A stretch of 46,952 nt of DNA from Hyphomicrobiales bacterium. GTDB lineage: Bacteria > Pseudomonadota > Alphaproteobacteria > Rhizobiales > Beijerinckiaceae. Every line of letters starts with the position of its first letter. The stretch's first letter is position 1. The translations under genes and the position numbers were made by a program. Shown here piece after piece: positions 15,827 to 41,568 of the stretch. Under the pieces are notes generated by a model. The model made no database searches. It was not told the DNA's origin and saw only the letters and a list, made by a program, of their open reading frames with translations. The stretch lies in the NCBI GenBank assembly GCA_025356415.1, contig JANXTB010000173.1:1-46952 (forward strand). Direction: 5' to 3'.

Positions 15827-15831
15827 GCGCG

Positions 15832-16930: not shown

Positions 16931-16950
16931 TGTACCACCATGCGGGTACA
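16931..16950. promoter_or_regulatory. Perfect inverted repeat upstream of the Bug gene, possible operator
   Basis: TGTACC-N8-GGTACA, a perfect 6-bp dyad, lies about 110 bp before the start of the Bug-amidohydrolase pair, in the only sizeable gap (16822-16963) of this strand. The GTACC/GGTAC cores resemble the half-sites near the IclR gene, though spacing differs. The rest of the gap shows no gene. Confidence 0.4.
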
Positions 16951-16963
16951 CGACTTTGCGACG

Positions 16964-20661: not shown

Positions 20662-20668
20662 GTTCGCC

Positions 20669-22578: not shown

Positions 22579-22607
22579 GGGATCCTCACGCCAGACAATG
22601 ACTGGCC

Positions 22608-22627
22608 GGCGCGGACTTCTCCGCGCC
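22608..22627 (-). terminator. Hairpin between the binding-protein and permease genes
   Basis: A perfect 8-bp GC stem GGCGCGGA/TCCGCGCC with a 4-nt loop, 11 nt after the SBP stop on the minus strand. There is no T-run, so it may protect the 3' end of the SBP message or attenuate weakly rather than terminate. Confidence 0.5.
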
Positions 22628-22638
22628 GATCCTTAGCA

Positions 22639-24258: not shown

Positions 24259-24290
24259 CACCGCCTCCAAGGCCTTTGTTCATCGGCGAT

Positions 24291-26269: not shown

Positions 26270-28573
26270 TCATACCTTCGCGCGCGCGTCCTCGATCATT
26301 TCCCACACGCGCGACGGCGATAGCGGCAACACATTCGGCTTCACGCCGAAGGATGACAGAGCATTCGCCACCGCGTTCGCGACAACGCCGCCAACCGGAA
26401 TGATGCCGCCCTCGCCCGCGCCCTTGGCGCCGAGCGGATTGGTGGGCGACGGCCAGTTTTCCAGCGAGTGACAGCGCACGACAGGATAATCGCTTGCGAG
26501 CGGCACAAGATAATCGGCGAGCGAGCCGACCATCAGCTGGCCTTCGTCGTTGTAGACGAGCTCTTCCGAGAAGACCGAGCCAAAGCCCTGCACGGCAGCG
26601 CCCATCACCTGTCCGTGCAGCGTCATCGAATTGATGATGCGCCCGACATCGTCGGCCACCACATAGTCGACGATCTCGACATGACCCGTGCCAGCATCCA
26701 CAGCGACGTGCGCGAAGGATGAACCGTAAGTGTAGGTCGGCGTCTGGTTCTTGAAGGAGCCATCGACGTTGATGCCGTCCGCAATAACTTCCGACAGCGG
26801 CACAGAGCGCCCATCAGCGGTTCGCGCAACGCCCTCCGAGACAGTCACTTCTTCAATGGTAACGCCGAGCCGCGCAGCCGCATGCGTGCGGAACGCCGCC
26901 AGGAATTTCTTCGCGGCGTCGAGCACGGCGGAGCCGCCCATCACCGTCGCGCGCGAGCCGAACGAACCCCAGCCTTCCTTGAGGTAGGTGGTCGAGCCGT
27001 GGAAGACCACGATCCGGTCCATCGGCAGCTCAAGGTAATCGGCCGCAATCTGCGACAGGATCGTCTCAAGTCCCTGCCCGATCGCGGATGATCCAGCATA
27101 AAGCCCGACTTTTCCATCGGCGTGCAGTTCCATCCGCACGTTCTCCTGCGGACCCGATGCGCCACCCTCGATGAACGAGCCTATGGCGATGCCGTGATAT
27201 CGGCCATCGATCAACGTCCCTTGCAGCGCAGACTTTTCCGCCCATTTGGAATCGTGCACCACGAGCTCGAACGGCTCGAGATGATGACCGGAGTCGCATT
27301 GCGTTTCGGCGCGCCCGTCGCTCGGCAAGACGGTTGCGAGCGGATAAGGCATTTCCGTATGCGTCAGCAAATTGCGCCGGCGAATTTCGAGGCGATCAAT
27401 GCCAAGCCCGGCCGCCGCCTGGTCCATCAATCTCTCGATGAAGAAGCAACCCTCGTAGCGGCCAGGGCCGCGATAGGTGCCGGCCGGCGTCTTGTTGGAG
27501 ACGAAAGCATAAGCATCTAGATGAATGGCGGGAACGCGGTAGGGACCCGACATGAATTGCGCGGCGTTGCGCACCGGCGTCATGCCGTTGGGCCGCACAT
27601 AGGCGCCGATATTGATATAGAGCGAACCGCGCATACCGAGGATCACGCCATCCTTGCGGAAGGCGAGCTCGACATCCGATGAGCATTCGCGCGAATGGCC
27701 GATGGCCATCAAATGTTCGCGCCGATCCTCGATCCATTTCACCGGATGGCCGAATTTCCGCGCGCCGAATGCGACGAGATAATCCTCCGGATAAAACTCG
27801 CCGCGCGCGCCGAAGCCGCCGCCGACGTCGAGCTCGATGTAATCCACCGCCTCTTCAGGGAGCTTCATCATCTTGGCCATCGCCTTGCGATTGAAGAACG
27901 GCAGTTTCGCCGCGCCCGATACGCTGAGCTTGCCGAGCTTCGCATCCCATTCCGCCAGCAATCCGCGCGTCTCCATGGGCAGCGCAGTCTGGCGCTGCGT
28001 GTAGAACGTGTCGCGAATGACGTAATCGGCCGCAGCGAACGCAGCGTCCGCATCACCCTTGTCGGCGTTGAAAACTGTCGGAACGTTTGTCTTCACATCC
28101 TCGAACAGCAGCACCTTGTCAGACATCGCCGCTTCGCGTTCGATCACCGGCGGAAGCGTCTCGATGTCGAGCACGATTGCCGCCAGCGCGTCTTCCGCAA
28201 GCTCCGCGCTTTCAGCGAGAACCATGGCGACTGGCTCGCCAAAATAACGCACCTTCTCGCGCGCGATGATCGGCTGTGCATATGGCCCAATCGTCGGGTT
28301 CGGGCGGCGGAAGGGAATCGTCGGGATATCGCCTTCGATGTCATTTGCAGTCACGACCGCATGCACGCCGGCCATCACCAGCGCCGCGCTCGCGTCGATC
28401 TTTCGAATGCGGCCATGCGCGATGGGCGAGCGCAGGAAAGCGGCGTGCCACTGCCCCGGGCGCGACACATCGTCGAGATACTGGCCCTCGCCGCGCAGGA
28501 AGCGATAATCCTCGACGCGCTCGATGTGCCCGCCGATGTAGGTGTTTTGTGCGTGGTGGCTGGCGGGCTTCAT
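26270..28573 (-). CDS. Molybdopterin-binding large subunit, xanthine dehydrogenase/CoxL family (set 1)
   Basis: A 767-residue large subunit of a molybdenum hydroxylase. Seen: N-terminal hammerhead part (VEDYRFLRGEGQYLDD), the cofactor loop DVGGGFGARGEFYPED at 249-264, active-site loop RGPGRYEG at 368-375, and the catalytic Glu721 in GAKGAGEGG. The AYRCSFR loop of true CO dehydrogenase is absent, so it should hydroxylate an organic ring or aldehyde. ATG 28573 overlaps the 2Fe-2S gene stop (ATGA). Last gene of the 13-gene run, ending 2 nt before the palindromic repeat. Confidence 0.92.
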   Translation of the reverse strand: MKPASHHAQNTYIGGHIERVEDYRFLRGEGQYLDDVSRPGQWHAAFLRSPIAHGRIRKIDASAALVMAGVHAVVTANDIEGDIPTIPFRRPNPTIGPYAQPIIAREKVRYFGEPVAMVLAESAELAEDALAAIVLDIETLPPVIEREAAMSDKVLLFEDVKTNVPTVFNADKGDADAAFAAADYVIRDTFYTQRQTALPMETRGLLAEWDAKLGKLSVSGAAKLPFFNRKAMAKMMKLPEEAVDYIELDVGGGFGARGEFYPEDYLVAFGARKFGHPVKWIEDRREHLMAIGHSRECSSDVELAFRKDGVILGMRGSLYINIGAYVRPNGMTPVRNAAQFMSGPYRVPAIHLDAYAFVSNKTPAGTYRGPGRYEGCFFIERLMDQAAAGLGIDRLEIRRRNLLTHTEMPYPLATVLPSDGRAETQCDSGHHLEPFELVVHDSKWAEKSALQGTLIDGRYHGIAIGSFIEGGASGPQENVRMELHADGKVGLYAGSSAIGQGLETILSQIAADYLELPMDRIVVFHGSTTYLKEGWGSFGSRATVMGGSAVLDAAKKFLAAFRTHAAARLGVTIEEVTVSEGVARTADGRSVPLSEVIADGINVDGSFKNQTPTYTYGSSFAHVAVDAGTGHVEIVDYVVADDVGRIINSMTLHGQVMGAAVQGFGSVFSEELVYNDEGQLMVGSLADYLVPLASDYPVVRCHSLENWPSPTNPLGAKGAGEGGIIPVGGVVANAVANALSSFGVKPNVLPLSPSRVWEMIEDARAKV

Positions 28574-29049
28574 TTGTCACCTCGCGCCTGCTGATAAGAC
28601 GCGCGCGCATCGAGAGCCGCCTCGATGATCGGGACGTAGCCGGTGCACCGACAAATGTTGCCAGAGATCACGTCGCGAATGCGCTCCTCACTCGCGTCGG
28701 GCTCTTCGCTCAGCAGCGCATGAAGCGTCGTCAACATGCCCGGTGTGCAGAAGCCGCATTGCAGGGCATGATGATGCTTGAAGGCTTCCTGCAAAGGCGT
28801 CAGCCCCTCTTCGAGCGACAGGCCTTCGACAGTGGTCACGCTGGCGCCTTGCGCTTGCACTGCAAGCATGAGGCAGCCGCGCACGGCGTCGCCGTTGACG
28901 ATCACGGTGCATGCGCCGCACACGCCGTGCTCACAACCAATATGCGTGCCGGTGAGATGAAGTTCATGGCGCAGGCAATCGGCAAGCGTCATGCGCGGCG
29001 TGACGTCGGCCGACACCGCGGCTCCGTTGACAGTAAAAGTAACTTTCAT
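28570..29049 (-). CDS. 2Fe-2S small subunit of Mo hydroxylase (set 1)
   Basis: A 159-residue two-cluster ferredoxin subunit. Plant-type cluster cysteines are C39, C44, C47 and C59. The C-terminal cluster uses C98, C101, C133 and C135 (CGFC and CRC). Length and spacing are those of CoxS. It passes electrons from the Mo centre to the FAD subunit. GGAAGG upstream of ATG 29049; 2 nt after the FAD subunit stop. Confidence 0.94.
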   Translation of the reverse strand: MKVTFTVNGAAVSADVTPRMTLADCLRHELHLTGTHIGCEHGVCGACTVIVNGDAVRGCLMLAVQAQGASVTTVEGLSLEEGLTPLQEAFKHHHALQCGFCTPGMLTTLHALLSEEPDASEERIRDVISGNICRCTGYVPIIEAALDARASYQQARGDK

Positions 29050-29051
29050 GA

Positions 29052-29918
29052 TCAGGCCTTCCGATTGGCTGCAGCGTTCAACGCGCGGCTCAGGAGGGTG
29101 CCGACGAGCGCCTTGCGATAGCGTGCGCTCGCGTGAATATCGCCGTTGGGATCGACCTCGGCGGAAGCAGCTGCCGTGGCGTCTGCGATCGTCGCATCAT
29201 CGATCTTTCGGCCATTGAGAACAGCCTCGGCTTTCGTCAGCCGCAGCGGCGTATCGCCAACCGAGATGGCGCCGATATGCGCATTCTGCGCGAGACCCGA
29301 TGCATCCACATCGTAAAACGCAGCGACACCCGCGAGCGCGAAATCGCCGCGACGGCGGGAAAATTCCTGGAATCCCCAACGCCGCGTCGCGGGCCAGGCC
29401 GGCAGCAACACGGAGACGATGATCTCGTCACTCTCCAGCGACGTCATCAGCGGCCCGATGAAAAGGTCGCCCGCGCGAATGGATCGCTTGCCCTTGGCGC
29501 CGACGACGTCAATCACCGCGTCGCACGTCAGCGCAATAGTCGGCATTTCCGCAGCCGGATCGGCATGCGCCAGCGACCCGCCAACCGTGCCGCGATTGCG
29601 GATCTGGTAATGCGCCACATGCTCGATCGCTTCCGGCAACAGCGCTAGCGCCGTCTTCAAACCGGCATGGTCAAGAATATCACGCCAGCGCACCATCGCG
29701 CCCAGCCGCACGCCCTCGGCGCCGATCTCAATCTTGTTGAGGCCTGGAATGTTGCGCAGGTCGACAAGCATCGAGGGCTCGGCAAGGCGGAACGCCATCA
29801 CCGGCACAAAGCTTTGCCCGCCCGCAATCGGTCGCGCCATGCCGTCACCGGCAACCAGCAGCGCAATGGCCTCGTCGAGAGTGCCCGGCGCCTCATACTC
29901 AAAGTGAGGAAGTTTCAT
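29052..29918 (-). CDS. FAD-binding medium subunit of Mo hydroxylase (set 1)
   Basis: A 288-residue CoxM-type flavoprotein. FAD-binding elements are AGGQSFVPVMAFRLA at about 37-51 and the NRGTVGGSLAHADPAAE at about 107-123. The C-terminal CO_deh_flav_C domain follows from about 180. No cysteine-rich insert is present, which excludes a 4-hydroxybenzoyl-CoA reductase-type subunit. Starts 27 nt after the Pht5-like gene with GGGAGGAG upstream. Confidence 0.92.
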   Translation of the reverse strand: MKLPHFEYEAPGTLDEAIALLVAGDGMARPIAGGQSFVPVMAFRLAEPSMLVDLRNIPGLNKIEIGAEGVRLGAMVRWRDILDHAGLKTALALLPEAIEHVAHYQIRNRGTVGGSLAHADPAAEMPTIALTCDAVIDVVGAKGKRSIRAGDLFIGPLMTSLESDEIIVSVLLPAWPATRRWGFQEFSRRRGDFALAGVAAFYDVDASGLAQNAHIGAISVGDTPLRLTKAEAVLNGRKIDDATIADATAAASAEVDPNGDIHASARYRKALVGTLLSRALNAAANRKA

Positions 29919-29945
29919 TTTCTTCTTTCTCCTCCCGAGGGCGCG

Positions 29946-30935
29946 TCAGACGCGGAACACATGGCCGCGCTTGCGGCCTTGCGAGACGTCGAGAAACAAA
30001 TCATCGAGCGACATGCGCCGGTTCGTCAGGCCCTGCTCATGCGCGAACATGGACAGCATCTCAAGCTGCTTCACATTCTTGTCGGTCAATCCATTTTCCC
30101 ACGGATCGGGCCCGAGCAAAGCCTCCTGCTCTTCCCACGCTTCACGATACCAGGCGAGCGGCACGATGCGGGGATTCTCCATCCGCTTCATCGCCACATC
30201 TTTCGCCTTGTTGAAAGCATGGAACAGATTTATCGGCACCCACGGATATTTCTCGACGATCTCGCGCTTGATCCCCATCGTGTGCATGATCGGAAAAATT
30301 TCCGTGCGCTTGTAAAAAGCCATTTCCTCTTCCTTGTAATTGGGAAAGAGGCGCCCGACGCGCGGGTCCTTGTCGATCAGCGGCTGGATGAGATCAGGAT
30401 GGATGAGCGCATCGATCTCACCTTCCGCCAGCATCTTTTCAATCGACTGGTCGTCGCGGATCTTCTGGAGCTTCAAGCCTTCGGGCTTTGTGAACTCAAT
30501 CGATTCATCGAGCTCCGTGAACCACTCGATCGACTTGAAAGGCACGCCATATTCATGATCGAGAAGGCCGCGCAGCCACAGGATCGCGGTCGACTGATAT
30601 TGCTTGAGGCCAATCCTCTTGCCGATCAGGTCGCTTGGCTTGGTGATGCCTTTCGACGTGTTGATGAAAATGAAGCCGTGGCGGAACCGGCGATGCAGGA
30701 AGACCGGAATTGCCTCGAAGCCGAAGTCCTTGTCCTTGGCGGCGATGTAGGACGAGCACGAGACTTCCGCGACATCGAAATCCTGATTGCGCAGGAAGCG
30801 CCAATGGCGCGTGGTCGAATCCATCTGCGTCAGAACGTTCAGCTCGATGCCATCGGCCTTCACGGAGCCGTCCTGCAACGCGCGGGTGGTTTCGTAATCT
30901 CCCACTGCGAGCGTCAATTCAAGTTTCTTGCTCAT
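29946..30935 (-). CDS. 4,5-dihydroxyphthalate decarboxylase (Pht5)-family protein
   Basis: A 329-residue cytoplasmic protein with the periplasmic-binding-protein fold but no signal peptide. The N-terminus LELTLAVGDYETTRAL and the segment GLKQYQSTAILWLRGLL, followed by EYGVPFKSIEWF, are characteristic of proteins annotated as 4,5-dihydroxyphthalate decarboxylase (NMT1/THI5-like superfamily). ATG 30935 has GGGGAG 6 nt upstream, which decides against the longer frame. Family membership is clear, but true decarboxylase activity is proved for few members and many homologues sit beside Mo hydroxylases with unknown substrates. Confidence 0.82.
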   Translation of the reverse strand: MSKKLELTLAVGDYETTRALQDGSVKADGIELNVLTQMDSTTRHWRFLRNQDFDVAEVSCSSYIAAKDKDFGFEAIPVFLHRRFRHGFIFINTSKGITKPSDLIGKRIGLKQYQSTAILWLRGLLDHEYGVPFKSIEWFTELDESIEFTKPEGLKLQKIRDDQSIEKMLAEGEIDALIHPDLIQPLIDKDPRVGRLFPNYKEEEMAFYKRTEIFPIMHTMGIKREIVEKYPWVPINLFHAFNKAKDVAMKRMENPRIVPLAWYREAWEEQEALLGPDPWENGLTDKNVKQLEMLSMFAHEQGLTNRRMSLDDLFLDVSQGRKRGHVFRV

Positions 30936-30962
30936 ACCCAACTCCCCGCGCATTCATTTTGA

Positions 30963-31883
30963 TTATGATATCGAACTGATCCGGCGCACTGGCTTCGCCT
31001 GCGTATCCGTAACGGCCAGCAGGTTTCTCAAATAAGCGCTCGCGGCATGGCCTTTCAAAGCCGTGCTCCACATGTCCTTCACGGCCTTCTCATGCAGCGT
31101 AAGAGCCTCAGGCGCCGATGTGATCATGGCGACGCCGACGCGCACATTCGGATGCTCGCCGAGACGGAACGGGCTTATCGACAGGATCTTGCGGTCCGGC
31201 TGGCGAAAGATCTGGAAGCCGGTCTGCGGTAGCGTGTCAGTGACGAGCCCGATCTGGATGCCGATCGGATCTTCCTCGATGAGGCGTGCAAAATATTCCA
31301 CTTCGGCGCGCGCCAGCATGCGGCGGCGCTGCTGCTCATCTTCCGGGATCAGCGTCTTGCCGGTGAAGCCGTTGCGTAGCAACCGCTCGATTTCCAACGC
31401 TGACATCAGGTTGACGATGGCGGGCTTGCGCTTGCGATAGGTTTCCTTGCGTTGCCGCAGGATCTCGAGGATGGCCGCGACATCGGCCAGCGCGCGTTCG
31501 CGATTGGGTAGGTCCGCCGGAATACTTTCGCGCAGCATTTCCTCGAGCACGCTCTGGAAAGAATCCGACGAGAGCAGAAACGAAATTGGCCCGGCGAGCA
31601 CGATGATGTGCTCCGCCGTTTCCTCGATTTGCCGCATCCGCTCGAAATAAGCGACGGCTGACGAGATATATTCGATGCCAACGCCGAGCAGCGTCGGAAT
31701 GGAAACTTCGAGTAGTTCGGCAAGTCGCTCGATCGTTTCAATCTTGGCGAGCTCGCCTTTCTCGAAGCGGTAGAGCGCTGTTCGTGAAATACCGATCGAG
31801 CGCGCGACTTCGTCTGCGCTCAGGCCGGAGCCAAGGCGGAATGCTTTCAGCCTCTGACCAATTTCATCGTAGCGGAACGCCAT
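30963..31883 (-). CDS. XRE-family transcriptional regulator with large C-terminal domain
   Basis: A 306-residue protein. The N-terminal helix-turn-helix at about 7-62 has the XRE pattern (GLSADEVARSIGISRTALYRFE, quoted only as the region 20-41). The remaining about 240 residues form a separate domain that I cannot name; it carries R/E-rich helices and a beta-rich end. Starts at ATG 31883 with AGGGAGGGGG upstream. It sits in the middle of the 13-gene run rather than at its edge, so it is co-expressed with the enzymes it may regulate. Likely a ligand-responsive repressor or activator of the run. Confidence 0.85.
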   Translation of the reverse strand: MAFRYDEIGQRLKAFRLGSGLSADEVARSIGISRTALYRFEKGELAKIETIERLAELLEVSIPTLLGVGIEYISSAVAYFERMRQIEETAEHIIVLAGPISFLLSSDSFQSVLEEMLRESIPADLPNRERALADVAAILEILRQRKETYRKRKPAIVNLMSALEIERLLRNGFTGKTLIPEDEQQRRRMLARAEVEYFARLIEEDPIGIQIGLVTDTLPQTGFQIFRQPDRKILSISPFRLGEHPNVRVGVAMITSAPEALTLHEKAVKDMWSTALKGHAASAYLRNLLAVTDTQAKPVRRISSIS

Positions 31884-31896
31884 GGCGGCCCCCTCC

Positions 31897-32889
31897 CTAA
31901 GCGCGCGGCAACAGGACGATGCGTCCTGCCGTCTGCCGCTGTTCGATCTTGTTCAAGCCCGTCTTGAAGTCATCGAGAAGCAAGGTTTCGAACGGCAAAG
32001 CCTTCAGCTTGCCGCTTTCGAACAGGCCGAAAACCTCTGCGTAGCAATCAGCGACGCGCGCTGGCATGCGCTTGCGATAGTCGCTGACCTGCAGGCCGCT
32101 GACTTCGATGTTTTTCACCAGCACATAATTCATCTTGAGCGAGGGGATGCGTCCAGCCGCAAAACCAATCACAACAAGACGCCCGCACCAGGCGAGCGCG
32201 CGCACAGCGGCGTCGAAGAAATCGCCGCCCAGCATGTCGAGCACGATGTCAGCGCCCTTGCCGCCATTGCACGCATAAACCTGCGCGCGTAAATTCTCGT
32301 GCAGGTCGGGCGCGGAAAGGTCGATGATCTCGTCAGCCCCGGCGCCGCGCACCATTTGCGCCTTGTCCATGTTGGCGATGGCGCCAAGCACGCGCGCGCC
32401 CATCGCTTTGGCAAGTTGCACCGACGCAAGTCCGACACCGCCGCTGGCGCCAAGCACCACCACCGTTTCGCCCTCGCGGAGACGCGCACGCTCTCGCAGC
32501 CCAAACCATGATGTGTCGTAGACGAGCGATGATGCCGCCGCTTCCGGAAAGCTCATCTTGTCAGGCAGGCGATAACAGGATTTGGCGTCGACCGCGCAAA
32601 GCTGCGCATAACCGCCGGCCTCCGCCATCGCGAGAACACGGTCGCCGATGGCGACATTCGTCACGCCTTGTCCAAGACTTCGCACGATGCCCGCAGGCCC
32701 CTTGCCGGGCGTGAAAGGCAGCGGGGGCAGAAATTGATACTTGCCGCCGATGACCAGCAGATCGACGAAATTCAGCGGCGCAGCGTGAACTTCGATGACC
32801 ACCTGACCGGGCGCCCCGACTGGATCGGCGACCTCAGCGACGCTCGCCTTCTCAAACGAACCAAATTCCGTGACCTGAACCGCGCGCAT
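31897..32889 (-). CDS. Zinc-free MDR oxidoreductase (NADPH:quinone reductase-like)
   Basis: A 330-residue medium-chain reductase. The coenzyme motif GASGGVG is at 147-153, and the N-terminal substrate region NFVDLLVIGGKYQ at about 40-52 matches quinone oxidoreductases and enoyl-thioester reductases of this group. Zinc-binding cysteines are absent. With a CoA ligase immediately upstream, a role in reducing an enoyl-CoA-type intermediate is as plausible as quinone reduction. GGAG before ATG 32889; stop TAG. Confidence 0.9.
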   Translation of the reverse strand: MRAVQVTEFGSFEKASVAEVADPVGAPGQVVIEVHAAPLNFVDLLVIGGKYQFLPPLPFTPGKGPAGIVRSLGQGVTNVAIGDRVLAMAEAGGYAQLCAVDAKSCYRLPDKMSFPEAAASSLVYDTSWFGLRERARLREGETVVVLGASGGVGLASVQLAKAMGARVLGAIANMDKAQMVRGAGADEIIDLSAPDLHENLRAQVYACNGGKGADIVLDMLGGDFFDAAVRALAWCGRLVVIGFAAGRIPSLKMNYVLVKNIEVSGLQVSDYRKRMPARVADCYAEVFGLFESGKLKALPFETLLLDDFKTGLNKIEQRQTAGRIVLLPRA

Positions 32890-32901
32890 GGATGTCTCCG
32901 T

Positions 32902-34557: not shown

Positions 34558-34593
34558 CGAAAGCCTTGCCTTCCGTATCGCGGACGCGCCGCA

Positions 34594-35193
34594 TCACTTG
34601 TTTTTGAAGAGACCCAGAATGGAATTTAAAAGAACTCTAAAAATCAGGGAGAAACCGCTGATTGGCTTCGCCGCCAGAGCTGCTGGCGCAGGCGCCGGCG
34701 CGATCTCCGCCGATGTCGCGCCTTCGACCACCGCTGGCTTCTGCGCTTGCAGCATGTCCTGCAGCGCGCGCGCGAACTGGCCGATGATCTGCTGCGCGAC
34801 TTCCTGCAACATGCCCGCCGCGCGGCCATATTGTGCGACAGCGCCCGACAGAGTCAGATCCGTTTCGACATTGACGCGCGTGCCGCCGTCCACCGGCGTT
34901 AGCCCGAACATGACTTTCGCCGCCGCATTGCCGCGGCCCTTCGTGTCAGCGCCCTGCGCTTTCAGCCGCGCGGTGCGCGCGACCGGATCAATCTCTTCGA
35001 ATTTCGCCGTGCCGGTGAAAGCAAGTGATACCGGACCCAAACGCACCGAAACTTTCCCTTTGTAGGCGTTGTCGGGAAGCGCCTCGAGCAATTCGGCGCC
35101 GGGCAGGCACGGCGCAATGCGCGGCACATCCATCAGCAGCGGCCACGCCTCTTCCGGCGGCAGCGGAATTTCGAATGAGTTCGAAATGATCAA
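34594..35193 (-). CDS. coxG: CoxG-like SRPBCC protein
   Basis: A 199-residue protein: SRPBCC/START-like domain (about 1-150) and a C-terminal Ala/Pro-rich linker plus a hydrophobic anchor (ISGFSLIFRVLLNSILGLF). The opening NSFEIPLPPEEAWPLL and PCLPGAELLE match carbon monoxide dehydrogenase subunit G, which helps tether CO dehydrogenase to the membrane. The start is TTG 35193, with GGGAGAG upstream; no ATG is suitably placed. It probably recruits one of the two Mo hydroxylases of this run to the membrane so that electrons can enter the quinone pool (inference). Confidence 0.85.
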   Translation of the reverse strand: MIISNSFEIPLPPEEAWPLLMDVPRIAPCLPGAELLEALPDNAYKGKVSVRLGPVSLAFTGTAKFEEIDPVARTARLKAQGADTKGRGNAAAKVMFGLTPVDGGTRVNVETDLTLSGAVAQYGRAAGMLQEVAQQIIGQFARALQDMLQAQKPAVVEGATSAEIAPAPAPAALAAKPISGFSLIFRVLLNSILGLFKNK

Positions 35194-35206
35194 GCCCGTC
35201 TCTCCC

Positions 35207-36511
35207 TCAAGCCATCTCGGCGGCGACGCCCGCGCGCGCGATCAGCCATTGCGCCGCATCGAGCAGCTTCTTGTCTTCGTAACGGCGCGCGATCAATTGC
35301 ACACCAACCGGCATTCCACTCTCGCCCTTGCCCGCCGGCACGGCAATGGTTGGTGTGTGAAGCAGGGTCCAAAGTCCCTGAAAACTCGGGTCGCCTGCGT
35401 AGTGCAGCCCAACAGGCGCCTCGCCATTGGCGGCGGGCGTGAGCAGGACATCGTAATCGTTGAAGATCGCATCCGCCTCGATGCGGCAGGTTTCAGCGAA
35501 ACGCTTCGCCTGCACATAATCCTCGACGCTGGTCGCAAAACCAGCCTCGATGGAGCGCGACAGCGCGGCGCTGATCTGCGCGCGATGATGCGTCCACTCG
35601 AAGGGCAGCGAGCGCGCGCGCTCGACATTGTTGAAGATCTCGCGCGTGGCGGTAAGCGTCGAAAAATGCGGCGGCATTTCATAAGTGGTTACCAAGGCTC
35701 CGGCCTTGCTCGCGGCGTCCGCGGCGCGTTGCAGGGCTGTGCGTGCCGACGCGTCAGCCTTGTCCCAGAGATAGGTGCGGCAGAGACCGATGCGCAAAGA
35801 CTGCTCGGGCGCAACGGGCGCCACGAAGGCTGCGCCGGTGAGGACGGAACACATCAACGCCAGGTCTTCAATGTTGCGCGCAATGAGGCCGATCGTGTCG
35901 ATGCTCTCAGCTGCGAATTTCAGGCCGGCGCGATTGAACGTTCCGAATGTCGGCTTGTAGCCGATAACGCCGCAAAATGCAGCGGGGCGCAGCACGGAGC
36001 CGCCGGTCTGCGTGCCGAAAGCGAGCGGCGTCATGAAGTCCGCAACTGCGGCGCCCGATCCGCTGGACGAACCGCCCGGCGTACGCGTCGCATCGAACGG
36101 ATTCGTCGTCGCGCCCGGCGCCATGCCGGCGAATTCGCACGTGACCGTCTTGCCCAAGATCACCGCGCCCGCCATGCGCGCCAGCGCGACGCAGGCGGCG
36201 TCTTCCGCAGGGCGATGACCGGCATAGATCGACGAGCCCATTTCAGTCGGCATGTCATGCGTGTCGAGCACGTCCTTCACGCCGATCGGCACGCCATGCA
36301 GCGGGCCTTTGCTGGGCGCCTTGTCGCAAGCGCGCGCCTGCGCCAGAGCCGCTTCCGGATCGATGAACGACCATGCCTTCACGACGCCCTCGCGCTCGGC
36401 AATGCGTGCAAGGCATGCGGATACAAGAGCCTCGGACGTCAGAGCGCCCGAAGCGATGAGGCGCGCGGCCTCCGCCAGTCCGAGCTCGTGAAGGGGTTTC
36501 TGTTGCGCCAT
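35207..36511 (-). CDS. Amidase (amidase signature family)
   Basis: A 434-residue amidase with triad Lys79 (GVKD), Ser148 (GGSSSGSG) and Ser172 (GTQTGGSV). It is not followed by an AtzG partner and is distinct from the AtzE-type enzyme at 16964. ATG 36511 lies one base after the pyrC stop. It could hydrolyse a linear amide produced by ring opening. The neighbouring dihydroorotase-fold enzyme and Mo hydroxylases make that an attractive but unproved sequence of steps. Confidence 0.9.
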   Translation of the reverse strand: MAQQKPLHELGLAEAARLIASGALTSEALVSACLARIAEREGVVKAWSFIDPEAALAQARACDKAPSKGPLHGVPIGVKDVLDTHDMPTEMGSSIYAGHRPAEDAACVALARMAGAVILGKTVTCEFAGMAPGATTNPFDATRTPGGSSSGSGAAVADFMTPLAFGTQTGGSVLRPAAFCGVIGYKPTFGTFNRAGLKFAAESIDTIGLIARNIEDLALMCSVLTGAAFVAPVAPEQSLRIGLCRTYLWDKADASARTALQRAADAASKAGALVTTYEMPPHFSTLTATREIFNNVERARSLPFEWTHHRAQISAALSRSIEAGFATSVEDYVQAKRFAETCRIEADAIFNDYDVLLTPAANGEAPVGLHYAGDPSFQGLWTLLHTPTIAVPAGKGESGMPVGVQLIARRYEDKKLLDAAQWLIARAGVAAEMA

Positions 36512-36512
36512 G

Positions 36513-37556
36513 TCAGCCCACCACGCGCCACGGAATGGTTTCGCCGCCGCGATAGATCAGCGCGCGCTCTTCGGGTCCCTCGACCTTCATGGATTCCGGC
36601 GCGGTCCAACCTTCGCGCGCGAGCGTGATGGTCTCGGCATTGGGCGCCATGTTGTAATGGCGCGGGCCATTCAGCGACGCAAAGGCTTCGAGGTTTTCTA
36701 GTTTGCCTTCTTCATCGAAAACCTGCGCGTAAGTTTCAATGGCGACGGGCGCATTGAACAGGCCCGCGGCGCCTACGACAGCGAGTTTCTTCGCCACGGA
36801 ATGCGGCGCAGAATCCGTGCCGAGGAAGAAACAGGCATCGCCCGAAGTTGCGGCATTGCGCAGCGCAAGGCGGTCGGGCTCGGTCTTGATGACCGGCATG
36901 CAGTACATATAGGGGCGATTGCCCCAGCCGAGCCAATCCGTGCGATTGAGCTGCAGATGATAGGGCGTGATCGATGCGCCAACCTGCGGCGCGTGCGCAC
37001 GCACGAAGTCCACCCCGATCTTCGACGAGAGATGCTCGACGATGAATTTCAGGCCGGGAAAAGACTTGATCCAGGGCGTCAGGCGGCGTTCCAGAAACAC
37101 CGCCTCGCGGTCGAACACGTCCACGGCCGGATCGACTTCTTCAGCATGCATCAGAAAGCGCATGCCGATCTTTTCCATGCGCTCCAGCACGCGCTCGATC
37201 TTCTTGTAATCGGTTACGCCGGCGGCGGAATTGGTGGTCGCATTGGCCGGATAGAGTTTCACGCCGGTGAAAATACCGTCCTTGAAGCCGCGCTCGACGT
37301 CATCGGGATCGGTCGCGTCGGTGAGGTAACACGTCATCAGCGGCTTGAAGGTCGAGCCCTCCGGCAGCACCGCCATGGCGCGCGCACGGTAGGCGGCGGC
37401 GGCGGCGCTGGTGCAGACTGGCGGCACGAGATTGGGCATGAGGATTGCGCGGCCGAAATTCTTCGCGGTGTGGGGAAGGGCTGCGCGCAGCATGTCGCCA
37501 TCGCGCACATGCAAGTGCCAGTCGTCGGGCTTCCGGATCGTGATGCGGTCGACCAT
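36513..37556 (-). CDS. pyrC: Dihydroorotase, class II (PyrC)
   Basis: A 347-residue zinc enzyme of the E. coli PyrC type. All key residues are present: His14 and His16 (DWHLHVRDG), carboxylated Lys100 (GVKLYP), His137, His175 and Asp248 (LGTDSAPH). The orotate-binding Arg18, Asn42 and His252 also remain. It should interconvert carbamoyl-aspartate and dihydroorotate. AAGGAG upstream of ATG 37556. Strange place for a pyrimidine gene: it lies in a catabolic run between a Mo hydroxylase and an amidase. It may simply be housekeeping, or be recruited to open a cyclic imide. Confidence 0.93.
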   Translation of the reverse strand: MVDRITIRKPDDWHLHVRDGDMLRAALPHTAKNFGRAILMPNLVPPVCTSAAAAAYRARAMAVLPEGSTFKPLMTCYLTDATDPDDVERGFKDGIFTGVKLYPANATTNSAAGVTDYKKIERVLERMEKIGMRFLMHAEEVDPAVDVFDREAVFLERRLTPWIKSFPGLKFIVEHLSSKIGVDFVRAHAPQVGASITPYHLQLNRTDWLGWGNRPYMYCMPVIKTEPDRLALRNAATSGDACFFLGTDSAPHSVAKKLAVVGAAGLFNAPVAIETYAQVFDEEGKLENLEAFASLNGPRHYNMAPNAETITLAREGWTAPESMKVEGPEERALIYRGGETIPWRVVG

Positions 37557-37558
37557 GG

Positions 37559-39910
37559 TCAGGCTCCTTTACGCGTGGCGGCGTCGATAAGCGCGATAAT
37601 ATCGGGCGGCGACAGCGGGACTTTGGTGATGTTGACGTTGAACGGCGCGAGCGCATCCTCGATCGCGGACGCGACCGCGGCGGTCATCGGAATGACGCCG
37701 GATTCGCCGACGCCCTTGATGCCGAGTTCGTTCAGCGGCGACGGCGATTCCAGATGCACGAATTCAACCGGCGGCGGCATTTCGGTGGCGGTGATCAGCA
37801 GATATTCGGCCAAAGTATTGGAAACCGGCTGCGCGTTCTCGTCATAGGCCATCCATTCGAACAGCGCGTTGCCGAGACCGTGCGCGATGCCGCCGATGAT
37901 CTGGCCCTCGACGATCTTCGGATGCAGCATCTTTCCGCAATCATGCGCGAAGACGACGCGCGCGACGGTGACGAGTCCGGTCTCGACATCGACCTCGACT
38001 TCGACAGCGCAGGTTCCATTCGCATAGGTCATGTCGTTGATGATGACATGTTCGGTCGCCTGCAGGCCGGGCTCGACATTGCCGGGAATGTAATAGCCCG
38101 GCAGACCCGCCACAGCCTTGGCGATCTCCGCCAGTTCCACCTGCGCGCCGCCGCCCTTCAGGCGCACGACGCGGCCTTCGATCTCGAGCGCCTGTTCGCC
38201 GACATTCAACATGTGGCTGGCCACCAGCAGGATCTTCTTCCGGATTTTCAGCGCCGCCGCATGTGCCGACGAGCCGGCCATCACGGCCTGGCGCGAATTG
38301 AAGCCGCCCATGCCGAGCTCGATGGCGCCTGTGTCGCCGGCGACAACCACGATATTGCTCATGTCGCAGCCGAGCTGTTCGGCGACGACCTGCGCGAGCA
38401 TGGTCTTGGTGCTCTGCCCCATTGCGGCGGCGCCGGACGCCACATGAATGCGGCCGTTCTCGGCGACGCGCACGCTCACCGGCTCGAACGGTCCCCGTCC
38501 TGTGCCTTCGACATAATTGGCGACACCGATTCCGATGTAGCGGCCCTGCGCCCGCGCGTCGTTCTGGCGGATCTTGAAATCTTCCCAGCCCGCAGCATCC
38601 AGCGCTGCTTTCTGCGTGGCCGGATAGTCGCCGGAATCAAGCACGACCTGCATGCCGCCGCGCGTTTTCAGCGGCGTCTTGTAGGGCATGGCGGCGCCCG
38701 GCACGAGGTTGCGGCGACGCACTTCGGCGCGGTCGATCTTCAATTCGCGCGCAACGCGGTCGAGCAGCCGCTCCATCACGAACACCGCTTGCGGCTGGCC
38801 AGCGCCGCGGATCGGCGTGACGGAGACCTTGTTGGTGGCGACGAGCTTGATGTCGAGAAAGTAATTCGGGACGACATAAGGCAACGTGATCGCCGCCGCC
38901 GAGCCATAAGCGATGTTCACGCCGCGCGCTGTATAGGCGCCGTGATCGTGGATCAGCAGGCCGCGCAGCCCAAGAATCTTGCCCTGCGCGTCAACCGCGA
39001 TCTCCATGTCCCAATATTGATCGCGCTCTTGCGTGGTGGCGACGAAATGCTCGCGCCGGTCTTCGATCCATTTCACCGGCGCCTGCAGCATCTGCGCGGC
39101 GAGCGCCACTATCGCTTCTTCCGGATAGAAGACGAGCTTCGGTCCGAAGCCGCCACCGACATCGGGCGTGATAACACGCATCTTGTCTTCATCGCGGCCG
39201 AGCAGCCCGCACAGCACGCGCTTGCCGGCATGCGGCGTCTGCGTCGAGCTCCATAGAGTGAGCACGTCGCTCATCGGATCGAGATTGGCGACGACGCCAC
39301 GGCATTCCATCGATTGCGCGACGCCGCGATGCTGCCAGTAGGTTTCCTTGAGGACATGCGCCGCGCCCGCAAAGGCGCTGACGCAGTCGCCATAGCCCAT
39401 GTCGAATTCGGCGGCGATATTATGCGGCGCGCCGTGGTGGGCGCGCGGCGCGTCGGGCGCCATGGCGTCGCGGCAATCATTGGCCACCGGCAGCGTATCG
39501 AAATCGACAAAGACCAGCGCCGCAGCGTCTTCCGCGACATAGCGGCTTTCGGCAATGACGGCGGCGATGGCCTCGCCGACATGCACGACTTCCTTGTCAG
39601 CCAGCACGGGGCGATGCAACTCCTGCCGGTAGGCGGGGCTCGGCAGCGCGACTTTCAGCAAGCGGTCGGCGAGAAGCGGCGCGATATCGTCCATCGTCAG
39701 CACGGCGTGGACGCCGGGCATGTCGAGCGCGGCGCTCTTGTCGATGGAGTTGATCAGCGCATGCGCATGCGGGCTGCGCACGAAGGCGATGTGCAACATG
39801 CCCGGAAAGGCGATGTCGTCCACGAAGCGCGCCTGTCCCATCAGCAGCGCGCGATCCTCGAGGCGCTCGACGCTGTGGCCAACGATGCGTGTGTCGACGG
39901 GCGCGATCAT
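37559..39910 (-). CDS. Molybdopterin-binding large subunit, xanthine dehydrogenase/CoxL family (set 2)
   Basis: A 783-residue large subunit. Cofactor loop DVGGGFGPKLVFYPEE at 250-265, active-site loop RGAGQPQA at 368-375 (Gln where set 1 has Arg) and catalytic Glu736 in GIKGVGESG. No AYRCSFR loop, so not a CO dehydrogenase. Overlaps the 2Fe-2S gene stop by ATGA; pyrC starts 2 nt after its stop. Differences in the active-site loop imply a different substrate from set 1. Confidence 0.92.
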   Translation of the reverse strand: MIAPVDTRIVGHSVERLEDRALLMGQARFVDDIAFPGMLHIAFVRSPHAHALINSIDKSAALDMPGVHAVLTMDDIAPLLADRLLKVALPSPAYRQELHRPVLADKEVVHVGEAIAAVIAESRYVAEDAAALVFVDFDTLPVANDCRDAMAPDAPRAHHGAPHNIAAEFDMGYGDCVSAFAGAAHVLKETYWQHRGVAQSMECRGVVANLDPMSDVLTLWSSTQTPHAGKRVLCGLLGRDEDKMRVITPDVGGGFGPKLVFYPEEAIVALAAQMLQAPVKWIEDRREHFVATTQERDQYWDMEIAVDAQGKILGLRGLLIHDHGAYTARGVNIAYGSAAAITLPYVVPNYFLDIKLVATNKVSVTPIRGAGQPQAVFVMERLLDRVARELKIDRAEVRRRNLVPGAAMPYKTPLKTRGGMQVVLDSGDYPATQKAALDAAGWEDFKIRQNDARAQGRYIGIGVANYVEGTGRGPFEPVSVRVAENGRIHVASGAAAMGQSTKTMLAQVVAEQLGCDMSNIVVVAGDTGAIELGMGGFNSRQAVMAGSSAHAAALKIRKKILLVASHMLNVGEQALEIEGRVVRLKGGGAQVELAEIAKAVAGLPGYYIPGNVEPGLQATEHVIINDMTYANGTCAVEVEVDVETGLVTVARVVFAHDCGKMLHPKIVEGQIIGGIAHGLGNALFEWMAYDENAQPVSNTLAEYLLITATEMPPPVEFVHLESPSPLNELGIKGVGESGVIPMTAAVASAIEDALAPFNVNITKVPLSPPDIIALIDAATRKGA

Positions 39911-40404
39911 TTCACGCCTCCCGCGCGCATCTTTTCAGCTGCGTCCAGCGTCGCGGAAATGATGCCCTCATAACCCGTGCATCGGCAGAGATTGCCGGAG
40001 ATGGCGATGCGCACATCGTCCGCGCTTGGCGATGGATTGTCGCGCAGCAGCTCGACGAGCGTCGTCAACATGCCCGGCGTGCAGAAGCCGCATTGCAGGC
40101 CGTGGTGTTCAGAAAGCGCCTGCTGCAGCGGATGCATCTCGTCGCCATTCGCCAATCCCTCGACGGTCGTGAGTTCGTGGCCGTTCGCCTGCACGGCGAG
40201 CATAAGGCACGAGCGCGCACTCATGCCATCGAACAGGATCGTGCAGGCGCCACAGACGCCGTGTTCGCAGCCGACATGCGTGCCGGTGAGGCGGAGTTCG
40301 TGGCGCAGGAAATCGGCGAGCGTCATGCGCACGGAAACGGCTTTGGAATAGGCCTTTCCGTTGACTGTCAGGGAAATCGTGCGGGTGTCGACGGCGCTGT
40401 CCAT
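39907..40404 (-). CDS. 2Fe-2S small subunit of Mo hydroxylase (set 2)
   Basis: A 165-residue two-cluster subunit with C46, C51, C54, C66 and C105, C108, C140, C142. ATG 40404 has GAGGAG 4 nt upstream. A TTG at 40416 overlapping the FAD subunit stop is the alternative. Completes the medium-small-large gene order of the CoxMSL type. Confidence 0.93.
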   Translation of the reverse strand: MDSAVDTRTISLTVNGKAYSKAVSVRMTLADFLRHELRLTGTHVGCEHGVCGACTILFDGMSARSCLMLAVQANGHELTTVEGLANGDEMHPLQQALSEHHGLQCGFCTPGMLTTLVELLRDNPSPSADDVRIAISGNLCRCTGYEGIISATLDAAEKMRAGGVK

Positions 40405-40412
40405 GCCGCTCC

Positions 40413-41288
40413 TCAATGCTTCTGCATCGCGCCGCAGCGCGAAAAGGATTGCGCGAGCGCGCGCTTGCTCATCACGACGGCGAGGTGCTGGCGGTAGCTG
40501 GCCGACACATAGACATCGCCCACCGCCTCCACCTTGCGGCAGAGTTCAGCGGCGGCGCGGAAAGTCTCCGGCGTCGCCATCTGCCCGATGAGCGCGGCTT
40601 CAACTTCGTGCATACGCAGCGGCGTGGCGGCGACGCCTCCGAGCGCCAAAGTCGCGCGCGAGATGCGCCCCGCAGGATCGACGAGCAGCATCGCAGCAGC
40701 AGACACGATAGCGAAATCGCCATGGCGGCGCGCGAACTCCTGGAACGAATGCCCTGCTTCGCGTGGCCACAGCGGGAACGACACGCGCGTGACGATCTCG
40801 TTCAACTCGATGGAGGGCGTCATGTAGCCAACCGGAAAATCCGCAAACGCGATCTGGCGCGCGCCGTTGGGGCCGATGACGTCGATCACCGCATCCAGCG
40901 CGCAAGCGAGCGTCGGCAATTCGGCGGCGGGATCGAGATGGCAGATCGAACCGCCGATAGTGCCGCGATTGCGCGTCTGGCGATGGCCGACGTGATGCAG
41001 CGCCTCTATCAAAATTGGGCAGGCCTGCGCAATCTCCGCGCTGAACTCGACCTCGCGCTGGCGCGTCATGGCGCCGATCTCGACACGGCTCTCCGTGATG
41101 CGCACGCCTGAAAGCTCGGCGATGCCGTTCAGGTCGACAACATGATCGGGAAGCACGAAACGCATGTTGAGCATCGGCATGAGGGATTGCCCTCCGGCCA
41201 GCGGCTTCGCATTATCCAAAGTCGCGAGCAGTTCGACCGCTTGGCTCAACGTCGCCGGATCGTGGTAACTGAACGGCGGCGGCTTCAT
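40413..41288 (-). CDS. FAD-binding medium subunit of Mo hydroxylase (set 2)
   Basis: A 291-residue CoxM-type flavoprotein starting M-K-P-P-P-F at ATG 41288. FAD elements are AGGQSLMPMLNMRFV at about 32-46 and NRGTIGGSICHLDPAAE at about 102-118. The open frame continues 45 codons upstream through the control region; that extension is Arg/Ser-rich and not family-like. First gene of the 13-gene run, with only a weak, distant GAGG as ribosome site. Confidence 0.9.
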   Translation of the reverse strand: MKPPPFSYHDPATLSQAVELLATLDNAKPLAGGQSLMPMLNMRFVLPDHVVDLNGIAELSGVRITESRVEIGAMTRQREVEFSAEIAQACPILIEALHHVGHRQTRNRGTIGGSICHLDPAAELPTLACALDAVIDVIGPNGARQIAFADFPVGYMTPSIELNEIVTRVSFPLWPREAGHSFQEFARRHGDFAIVSAAAMLLVDPAGRISRATLALGGVAATPLRMHEVEAALIGQMATPETFRAAAELCRKVEAVGDVYVSASYRQHLAVVMSKRALAQSFSRCGAMQKH

Positions 41289-41337
41289 CTGGCGCGCATC
41301 CTCACATTCGCGTCGAAACGCGGAGCAGACATTCGAT

Positions 41338-41401
41338 TTTCTGGATTTACGCCAGAAATGGGACGACCGCAAGCCTGAGGGTCGTCGCGCAAAGCTTGCG
41401 C
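41338..41401. promoter_or_regulatory. Three adjacent perfect inverted repeats in the divergent control region
   Basis: TTTCTGG-N7-CCAGAAA (41338-41358), GACGACC-N11-GGTCGTC (41362-41386) and GCGCAA-N3-TTGCGC (41387-41401) stand side by side, 50-113 bp before the leftward FAD-subunit gene. A weak leftward promoter (TTGCGG, 17 nt, TAAATC) would overlap the first dyad. They are candidate operators for the XRE regulator of the run or an unseen regulator. The remainder of the 280-bp gap (41289-41568) has no gene. Confidence 0.5.
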
Positions 41402-41487
41402 AGCCTGCGTAAAGCCGCGCCACATTTGCAGAAACCCGCTTGAATTCAGATATATGTGGACTTCATGCTGAAGCGGGACAGCCTCGG

Positions 41488-41516
41488 TTGACGGATTGCG
41501 CCCGGCGTGGTCCAAT
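41488..41516 (+). promoter_or_regulatory. Possible promoter of the UbiD-type gene
   Basis: TTGACG (41488-41493), a 17-nt spacer and TCCAAT (41511-41516; 4 of 6 to the -10 consensus). It would give a leader of about 45 nt before the GGAGAG/ATG of the decarboxylase gene. By eye only. Confidence 0.4.
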
Positions 41517-41568
41517 TTTGGGACACAGGCCCGCTGCGCGCCAAAACTTCCCACTTGGAGAGAGTTGA

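Follow-up and report, generated by a model that had tools for sequence, protein, structure and literature searches.

Degradation of isonicotinate, a pyridine acid also formed when the drug isoniazid is broken down, reportedly proceeds in Mycobacterium INA1 via 2-hydroxyisonicotinate, citrazinate, and citrazyl-CoA to propane-1,2,3-tricarboxylate. We know of no genes for this pathway, and neither PyrC nor PyrDK is part of it to our knowledge; no paper on bacterial citrazinate catabolism was found among the literature matches listed for isonicotinate or citrazinate. In nicotine degradation, the second hydroxylation is ascribed to the molybdenum enzyme 6-hydroxypseudooxynicotine dehydrogenase (PMC8305194). 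Against this background we examined a gene run at 26270-41288 of the window (the whole 46,952-nt stretch of DNA analyzed), together with its flanks:

41569..43023, plus strand, UbiD-family decarboxylase, divergent from the operon and beyond 26270-41288 (TIGR00148, Pfam UbiD)
41289..41568, no strand, predicted divergent promoter region (intergenic alignment of eight loci)
40413..41288, minus strand, FAD2, molybdenum hydroxylase FAD subunit (Pfam FAD_binding_5, CO_deh_flav_C)
39907..40416, minus strand, FeS2, 2x[2Fe-2S] subunit (Pfam Fer2, Fer2_2; 8 Cys)
37559..39910, minus strand, Mo2, molybdenum subunit (Pfam; GVGESG motif)
36513..37556, minus strand, PyrC, dihydroorotase-family cyclic amidohydrolase (TIGR00856; matches PDB dihydroorotases)
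35207..36511, minus strand, amidase of the amidase-signature type, predicted to cleave off the amide derived from the ring (Pfam Amidase)
34594..35193, minus strand, CoxG, proposed molybdenum hydroxylase accessory protein (Pfam COXG)
32902..34557, minus strand, AMP-forming acid-CoA ligase (Pfam AMP-binding; FTSGTTGAPK motif)
31897..32889, minus strand, MDR-family reductase of the PIG3/quinone reductase type, proposed enoyl-thioester reductase (TIGR02824)
30963..31883, minus strand, XRE-family regulator (Pfam HTH_31)
29946..30953, minus strand, Pht5-like decarboxylase homologue (phmmer)
29052..29918, minus strand, FAD1 (Pfam)
28570..29049, minus strand, FeS1 (Pfam; 9 Cys)
26270..28573, minus strand, Mo1, second molybdenum subunit (Pfam)
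25185..26183, plus strand, TctC-like receptor homologue, convergent with the operon (protein cluster c15)

The first-pass annotation had described 26270-41288 as 13 tightly packed genes on the minus strand with no gap above 36 nt, and the gene caller returned exactly 13 consecutive minus-strand genes at these positions, bounded by the plus-strand genes 25185-26183 and 41569-43023. The intergenic distances range from -4 to +36 nt (from FAD2 to Mo1: -4, -4, 2, 1, 13, 36, 12, 13, 9, 27, 2, and -4 nt), with 4-nt overlaps at 3 and gaps of 1-2 nt at another 3 of the 12 junctions. FeS2 begins with TTG, and the gene caller favors a start at 40404. The gene names given earlier agreed with the domain calls; "Pht5-like" was upheld by a phmmer match to 4,5-dihydroxyphthalate decarboxylase (PDB 9jp7, E 1.4e-55), this protein having a weak Phosphonate-bd match with Pfam and no match in the NCBIfam scan. 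The divergent gene was assigned to the UbiD family by TIGR00148 (272.2 bits; cut-off 244.85). The convergent gene had no Pfam or NCBIfam match at the thresholds used but clustered with neighbors of TctC-like appearance from other loci, and by this association it is possibly an uptake component.

Synteny with related genomes was then compared. All 13 genes were found in the same order in three genomes of the same genus (G025, G039, and G037, the last of these with Mo1 truncated at the contig end). At otherwise matching loci, no CoxG match was found in G028; G016 had no CoxG match and one insertion, and G045 had insertions and neither a CoxG nor an XRE match. The concern that the two halves of the run might never occur together elsewhere was thus dispelled by all six of these genomes, and G041 carries both halves on one contig in rearranged form. 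With protein identities of 58-88% where the order is conserved, the 13 genes are a real co-inherited set. In the stretch read for G030 and G007, a different second molybdenum hydroxylase (38-39% identity) accompanies the PyrC half, and therefore its pairing with the Mo1 half is not universal. Of the heteroaromatic-acid route proposed in the first-pass annotation, gene content supports the unit itself, both hydroxylations, opening of the ring by hydrolysis, and activation with CoA.

Both hydroxylases have the makeup of the xanthine oxidase family, with three subunits, MoCoBD, [2Fe-2S], and FAD domains, and the GxGE glutamate. The best solved match of Mo2 was the pyridine hydroxylase 6-hydroxypseudooxynicotine dehydrogenase (Kdh, PDB 7dqx; 470 bits), followed by CoxL (8uem; 437 bits), and Mo1 likewise matched 7dqx best (455 bits). 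Mo2 represents the hydroxylase most frequently found beside PyrC of the window type. Considered as an aerobic CO dehydrogenase, Mo2 scored below the CoxL model cut-offs (715.3 against 950 and 486.6 against 991.15). Two molybdenum hydroxylases are unremarkable on their own in this genome, where MoCoBD_1 gave 34 matches, of which 21 exceeded 190 bits. Among the other enzymes, the amidase was closest to malonamidase E2 (PDB 1ock; 273 bits, with the next family at 149), an enzyme that acts on a carboxylate-amide. The CoA ligase was about equally near several families, and the MDR reductase scored 225 bits with TIGR02824, under the cut-off of 296.8.

PyrC scored as a dimer-type dihydroorotase (TIGR00856, 383.8 bits; cut-off 292.95), and in the PyrC tree the window-type sequences (n = 45) formed a single clade with a support of 100/100. 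The metal- and carboxylate-binding positions were at least 97% invariant across these 45 and 36 control sequences. Positions 14, 16, 18, 42, 100, 107, 108, 137, 175, 248, and 252 are kept in the window protein, and by an inferred offset of +2 we take them to be equivalent to H16, H18, R20, N44, K102, T109, T110, H139, H177, D250, and H254 of the E. coli enzyme. Eleven changes were specific to the clade, including the presumed Leu222 equivalent, which is Met in 44 of 45 sequences; in dihydroorotase, Leu222 is described as touching the catalytic loop threonine (PMC12809426). These changes may mean that the ligand is other than dihydroorotate. Since another (class I) dihydroorotase was present in 13 of the 15 genomes carrying window-type PyrC, and PyrD2 in 20 of the 22 carrying window-type PyrD1B (in 18 of them at a site away from the locus), the window-type PyrC and PyrD1B are probably not housekeeping copies.

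The neighborhoods of window-type PyrC were compared, up to about 10 kb on each side, with control loci of 53-58% PyrC; shared ancestry means that the resulting counts are not independent, and contig ends truncate many of the loci. Enriched in the window-type loci (lowest P-value 1.1e-9) were molybdenum hydroxylase (29/44 versus 1/36 in the control) and five families with no control occurrence (0/36 each), namely UbiD (24/44), CoxG (20/44), amidase (19/44), Pht5-like (19/44), and the tricarballylate dehydrogenase TcuA (12/44; 12/45 in the clade count), while the MDR reductase was barely enriched (10/44 versus 2/36, P-value 0.056). Carbamoylase homologues showed the reverse (0/44 versus 7/36). 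PyrE was present in 6/44 versus 10/36; in the six genomes with PyrE in the locus, the strong PyrE copies occur only there. PyrD2 was found in 3 of 45 loci. The orotate reductase genes (PyrD1B and/or PyrK) were detected in 23 of the 45 window-type loci and the CoA ligase and/or MDR reductase in 14, the window's included; the two modules never coincided (0/45), and 8 loci had neither, including long ones such as L070. The 14 ligase/MDR loci all belong to a single group of 15 rows in the PyrC tree, so this non-overlap amounts to about one event, which the Fisher P-value of 1.9e-6 overstates; the ligase and reductase together seem to have taken the place of PyrDK in one lineage. All 22 window-type PyrD1B proteins carry SCPT, compared with SCPN in the PyrD of 6 of 6 orotate-type loci (described below) and in three solved chains; 20 of 22 retain the Asn of the PyrD NSIGL motif, L071 has Gln in its place, and in L076 it was unmatched.

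Genes for tricarballylate oxidation recur in this setting. Locus L068 is a single run of Mo2-PyrC-amidase-ligase-thioesterase-MDR-TcuA-TcuB-CoxG-TctC-like-FAD2-FeS2. In related loci, TcuA scored 594 and 620 bits (cut-off 369) and TcuB 498 (cut-off 246.6); of the two TcuA models, the protein encoded within the L089 cluster exceeds the cut-off of one (594 against 369) but stays under that of the other (265 against 372.55). TcuA (712 bits) and a TcuB truncated where its contig ends are also encoded in the window's own genome, on a contig other than that of the operon. TcuA is widespread across the genus, being present in 15 of 15 genomes with window-type PyrC versus 27 of 36 others.

A candidate operator was identified at 41512-41521 from the aligned intergenic regions of eight loci (CCAATTTTGG on the plus strand and CCAAAATTGG on the minus strand). 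The pattern CCAAAWTTGG or CCAAWTTTGG gave 9 matches in 692 kb of window-type sequence (9 of 45 loci) versus 1 match in 697 kb of control sequence (1 of 36 loci); matches within genes are that of L086, inside a Mo subunit gene, and that of L061, inside the called UbiD frame. XRE homologues were found in 25 of 44 window-type versus 6 of 36 control loci. The site may be bound by a regulator, and the XRE-family protein would regulate the operon.

Overall, we consider it reasonably probable that this operon serves to catabolize a pyridine-4-carboxylate, with a ring of the isonicotinate type, and derives from an orotate-degradation module adapted to the new use. The pairing of PyrC with PyrD1B/PyrK in relatives indicates an orotate-like ring, and their tricarballylate dehydrogenase suggests the end product. 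The data directly establish which gene families are present, their linkage across genomes, the PyrC clade, the mutual exclusion of the two reduction modules, and the contrast to operons of the orotate type; each reaction, the substrate, and the order of steps are inferred. The two molybdenum hydroxylases, which CoxG would mature, would hydroxylate C2 and C6 to give 2,6-dihydroxypyridine-4-carboxylate (citrazinate). In the window lineage, the acid would be converted to its CoA ester by the ligase, the ring double bond reduced by the MDR reductase, and the free acid then released by a thioesterase such as that present in L068; other relatives would use PyrD1B/PyrK for direct reduction of citrazinate. 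The predicted product, 2,6-dioxopiperidine-4-carboxylate, differs from dihydroorotate in having CH2 in place of one ring NH, and it retains the scissile imide. PyrC would open this glutarimide ring, the amidase would release ammonia to yield tricarballylate, and TcuA/TcuB would oxidize the latter to cis-aconitate. Each step of this isonicotinate/citrazinate route has a candidate gene, with TcuA/TcuB encoded on the other contig and the operon having no thioesterase gene; a CoA ester would be a poor substrate for PyrC. Plain isonicotinate leaves the decarboxylase genes unexplained, and UbiD and Pht5 probably remove an extra carboxylate from the ring of the true starting compound.

Other explanations were weighed against this route. 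In true pyrimidine or orotate catabolism, the molybdenum hydroxylases would turn a pyrimidine-carboxylate into orotate, which PyrD/PyrK and PyrC would break down as far as N-carbamoyl-aspartate, whose ureido group the amidase would cleave. The co-occurrence of PyrC, PyrD1B, PyrK, and sometimes PyrE and PyrD2, the retained dihydroorotate carboxylate site, the resemblance of cousin operons to orotate degradation, and the six loci holding the only strong PyrE of their genomes are all consistent with this; however, carbamoylase is absent from all 44 window-type loci, the window amidase is malonamidase-like, PyrD carries SCPT throughout, TcuA has no role for carbamoyl-aspartate, and the ligase and MDR reductase would be unnecessary, so that we regard it as unlikely. 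Less likely still, PyrC, PyrD/PyrK, and PyrE may be analogue-tolerant copies that sustain pyrimidine synthesis amid orotate-like intermediates rather than pathway enzymes. Citrazinic acid is termed a potent inhibitor of orotate phosphoribosyltransferase (PMC7575509), PyrE and PyrD2 occur in 6 and 3 of 45 loci, and most of the genomes have other dihydroorotase and PyrD2 genes; yet this explanation leaves the operon without a ring-opening hydrolase, the mutual avoidance of ligase/MDR and PyrD/PyrK would be unexpected, and the in-locus PyrE of six genomes is the only strong copy and not an extra one.

A similar logic may also apply to another ring or order of steps, for example with either the first acid or tricarballylate as the substrate of the ligase, or with a different cyclic imide as the ring. 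This would suit a ligase near several families, a gene content that does not fix step order, and UbiD and Pht5 without an assigned place; on the other hand, by chemical reasoning, replacement of N1 by carbon is a single ring-atom change of orotate under which the scissile imide and the position of the carboxylate are both preserved, and with this change TcuA suits the product. We consider such a variant improbable. A chance stack of unrelated catabolic genes on the same strand can almost be dismissed: the genome is rich in molybdenum hydroxylases and runs of nine same-strand genes are present elsewhere in the window, but neither accounts for a gene order kept across diverged genomes or for the neighborhood associations. 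The isonicotinate-type route provides a gene-level, testable proposal for degradation of such pyridine acids in Proteobacteria. If true, pyrimidine enzymes were recruited into pyridine catabolism because the substrates are almost the same in shape, and genes of such operons annotated as "dihydroorotase" or "dihydroorotate dehydrogenase" may have another substrate than the name implies.

Compared with known systems, the window hydroxylases differ from Kdh in substrate and operon, and the window amidase differs from malonamidase E2 in operon. The INA1 isonicotinate pathway is alike in its predicted intermediates, use of a molybdenum hydroxylase, and CoA activation, and belongs to a different phylum. 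Unlike known tricarballylate utilization, TcuA/TcuB are here encoded outside the window operon, with above-cut-off members in related loci and the same genome. The orotate-degradation type of operon is exemplified by the Variovorax paradoxus VAI-C plasmid CP063167 and loci L102, L117, L131, L135, L136, and L137, which by their annotation would catabolize orotate. PyrK, PyrD1B, and PyrC form one run on the plasmid and in 6 of 6 loci, and a related XRE regulator lies within 4 of 6 (an HTH regulator on CP063167). As points of difference, an MFS carrier is found in 5 of 6, and a carbamoylase stands between PyrD and PyrC where the window has the amidase (hydantoinase/carbamoylase family, TIGR01879 273-293 bits against 204 in 3 of 3 scanned). 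These operons have no internal molybdenum hydroxylase, such genes lying a few kb off in L136 and CP063167; their PyrD carries SCPN and their PyrC falls outside the window clade. The 13-gene run itself does not qualify as an orotate-degradation operon, since PyrK, PyrD1B, and carbamoylase are all absent from its 13 genes. Tentatively, and at somewhat less than an even chance, a complete orotate module may have become a pyridine-acid pathway, with the ring specificity of reductase and dihydroorotase altered by one ring atom, the carbamoylase replaced by an amidase, and, in the window lineage, the reductase replaced by CoA ligase and MDR; as its intermediates resemble orotate, some carriers would then keep their PyrE and PyrD next to the operon for protection.

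The strand and spacing of the 13 open reading frames in the minus-strand run at 26270-41288 were confirmed as described in the first-pass annotation, and the domain names given there held in family-profile scans of the 13 proteins. The name Pht5-like was upheld by a phmmer match to 9jp7, a 4,5-dihydroxyphthalate decarboxylase (E-value 1.4e-55); no NCBIfam match was found for this protein. The run is bounded by two genes on the opposite strand:

41569-43023, plus strand, UbiD-family decarboxylase
25185-26183, plus strand, TctC-like protein

The best solved match of the former was 7pda, which may be a phenazine-acid decarboxylase. The latter is called TctC-like from its cluster, on reading, and had no family match in the NCBIfam or Pfam scans. 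Also present in the window are (i) genes for an ABC transporter of oligopeptide type (SBP_bac_5, a pair of permeases, and an ATPase), which follow downstream of the run on its strand (18976-24270); (ii) another catabolic patch encoding a second amidase, a TctC receptor, two Amidohydro_2 proteins, and an M24 peptidase-family protein (12541-18367); and (iii) a single protein combining DUF1775 with a copper chaperone domain of the PCu(A)C family (43973-44935).

A scan of species genomes confirmed at least 586 relatives of the PyrC protein, of which the best 80 were kept as loci: 44 at 68-84% PyrC identity (window-type loci) and 36 at 53-58% (control loci). In a tree of these 80 sequences and the window, the 44 and the window formed one group of 45 with support of 100/100. 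Within the same sequences, both sets retain the positions at which dihydroorotase binds metal and carboxylate, while 11 positions consistently differed between them; the presumed equivalent of Leu222 was Met in 44 of the 45 window-type proteins and Leu in all 36 controls. Leu222 touches the catalytic loop threonine, according to PMC12809426. PyrC matches at an E-value of 1e-150 or better were detected in 2 of 297 genomes sampled evenly from the order, own genome included, and window-type PyrC was not found in the plasmid search, where all 124 records fell below 60% identity. Isolates whose records contain PyrC of this clade include Roseiarcaceae bacterium H3SJ34-1, Roseomonas sp. KE2513, and Propylenella binzhouense L72. 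The metagenome-assembled genome (MAG) records behind four of the clade's loci (L074, L082, L084, and L098) bear the titles Bordetella parapertussis, Chitinophaga pinensis, or Klebsiella pneumoniae; the four sit among environmental proteobacterial rows in the tree, and the organism names look wrong.

To compare neighbours, open reading frames were called and clustered in the 45 loci, representatives were named with NCBIfam and Pfam, and the 44 window-type loci (window excluded) were counted against the 36 controls, all from the best 80 of at least 586 relatives; the control loci were the longer on average (697 kb in 36 versus 692 kb in 45, window included). Genes for the following were more frequent around window-type PyrC: Mo hydroxylase (29/44 versus 1/36), UbiD (24/44 versus 0/36), CoxG (20/44 versus 0/36), amidase and Pht5-like protein (each 19/44 versus 0/36), TcuA (12/44 versus 0/36), XRE (25/44 versus 6/36), PyrK and PyrD1B (each 22/44 versus 6/36), and ligase (11/44 versus 1/36). 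Counts for the remainder were 10/44 versus 2/36 for MDR (P = 0.056), 3/44 versus 1/36 for PyrD2, 1/44 versus 0/36 for TcuB, and 6/44 versus 10/36 for PyrE. By table count, at least two Mo subunits, whole or cut, occurred in 17 of the 24 loci of at least 15 kb. In three loci (L071, L076, and L090), PyrK and PyrC are separated by a gene whose product, by reading only, resembles a tetratricopeptide protein (cluster c20). Between UbiD and FAD2, a CCAAAATTGG-type palindrome was identified that recurs in related loci, with nine matches in the 45 window-type loci (one of them within a Mo gene) versus one in the 36 controls of the best-80 set; judged from sequence, it is a candidate operator only.

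The window is one contig (C85) of a 4.6-Mb, 429-contig assembly. Among its named relatives, the closest are MAGs with Hyphomicrobiales or Beijerinckiaceae in the title. With 34 MoCoBD_1 matches in this genome, of which 21 exceed 190 bits, two Mo hydroxylases are unsurprising by themselves. Among 101 genomes searched, 53 had some PyrC match and 15 carried window-type PyrC, namely the window's own, 12 with one full-length match each at 76-95% identity, and two with fragments (G017, pieces at 79-80%; G040, one piece at 78%). All 13 genes were found in order in L041, L042, and L043 (Mo1 of L043 is cut by the contig end). L044 and L047 had no CoxG match, L045 was without CoxG and XRE and carried insertions, and the contig pieces L039, L040, L046, and L051 kept the order, the last two without a CoxG match; the order was rearranged in L048, L049, L050, and L057. 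Genome G041 has the Pht5-FAD1-FeS1-Mo1 half and Mo2-PyrC on one contig, the former upstream of the latter. For G030 and G007, the stretch read holds a second Mo hydroxylase other than that of the run (38-39% identity). Thus, the halves of the run, which had been joined into one pathway at first reading, are often but not always linked in other genomes.

The first-pass annotation had proposed a route for a heteroaromatic or aromatic acid combining two hydroxylations, hydrolytic opening, CoA activation, and decarboxylation, an interpretation that holds in its broad lines and is extended here. Two hydroxylations beside the nitrogen of pyridine-4-carboxylate would yield citrazinate, the reduced form of which would correspond to dihydroorotate with CH2 for N1, with the cut imide and bound carboxylate in the same places. 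Opening by PyrC would then give the mono-amide of tricarballylate as the proposed substrate of the amidase, and TcuA/TcuB would oxidise the tricarballylate. This catalytic route is a prediction from chemistry and family knowledge, which we favour with moderate confidence. The best solved match of both Mo subunits was 6-hydroxypseudooxynicotine dehydrogenase (Mo2, 470 bits; Mo1, 455 bits), with CoxL second for both; CO dehydrogenase was rejected for Mo2, which scored below both model cut-offs. For the amidase, the nearest match was malonamidase E2 (273 bits versus 149 for the next family), and this match, together with TcuA, led us to drop a uracil-barbiturate-ureidomalonate route suggested by the amidase, PyrC, and ligase. 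A housekeeping role for PyrC is disfavoured, as its genome also encodes a second dimer-type PyrC (two contig-end pieces) and a dihydroorotase of class I. Imitation of orotate by the pyridine intermediate agrees with citrazinic acid being a potent inhibitor of orotate phosphoribosyltransferase, as stated in PMC7575509. The literature search returned no paper on these genes among the matches listed; PMC7356986 describes another pyridine pathway, whose amidohydrolase-family protein clusters apart from dihydroorotases.

Several observations fit the pyridine-4-carboxylate route less simply. No TcuA was found in the window operon; the own genome encodes TcuA on contig C219, together with a truncated TcuB. 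TcuA was present in all 15 genomes with window-type PyrC versus 27 of 36 others in the genus, too common to decide on the route, and TcuB exceeded the cut-off in 10 of the 15. To regard in-locus PyrD2 and PyrE as extra resistant copies is too simple, since the sole PyrD2 found in G103 and G106, and the only strong PyrE copies in six genomes, are those in the locus. Furthermore, UbiD and Pht5 imply a removable carboxylate, and the substrate in nature may thus be a pyridine with two or three carboxylates or a larger heteroaromatic compound. The surroundings of PyrC in L066 may hint at a larger starting compound: positions 343-9964 encode both subunits (alpha and beta) of a ring-hydroxylating oxygenase, along with a second Rieske oxygenase and a protein resembling Rieske ferredoxin. 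Proteins of these clusters are also encoded in L069.

Two modules may serve ring reduction. Among the 45 loci (best-80 set and window), 14 carry ligase and/or MDR, 23 carry PyrD and/or PyrK, none carries both, and eight carry neither (Fisher P = 1.9e-6). All 14 ligase/MDR loci fall in one 15-row group of the best-80 PyrC tree (95/90), nested among PyrD/PyrK loci, with L070, which has neither module, as the fifteenth row. We read ligase plus MDR as a single later substitution, and the P-value therefore overstates the evidence. The ligase step could also fall elsewhere in the route. The ligase and MDR genes of L068 flank one for a thioesterase (PF03061), and TcuA and TcuB come next.

A cousin arrangement, PyrK-PyrD1B-hydrolase-PyrC, was found in six control loci of the best-80 set (L102, L117, L131, L135, L136, and L137). 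The hydrolase belongs to the hydantoinase/carbamoylase family in the three of three scanned (273-293 bits, above 204), and homologues occur in these six loci and L133, seven of the 36 controls, versus none of the 44 window-type loci. The PyrD motif is SCPN in all six cousin loci versus SCPT in all 22 window-type PyrD proteins. From the CPN/CPT motif and residue numbering, the Thr of SCPT would presumably occupy the position of Asn132 in the Trypanosoma enzyme. Of the 22 window-type proteins, 20 retain the NSIGL-motif Asn, which presumably corresponds to Asn67. For the Trypanosoma enzyme, PMC12060061 and PMC4427443 list Asn132 with the residues that form bonds to ligands of orotate type and describe bonding of Asn67 to N1-H and C2=O. 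An annotated example of the cousin operon, on the Variovorax plasmid CP063167, consists of MFS, PyrK, PyrD, carbamoylase, PyrC, HTH regulator, and PyrE genes. Overall, the PyrK-PyrD1B-carbamoylase-PyrC run of the six loci and this plasmid, often accompanied by an MFS carrier and PyrE, looks like a system for aerobic orotate catabolism.
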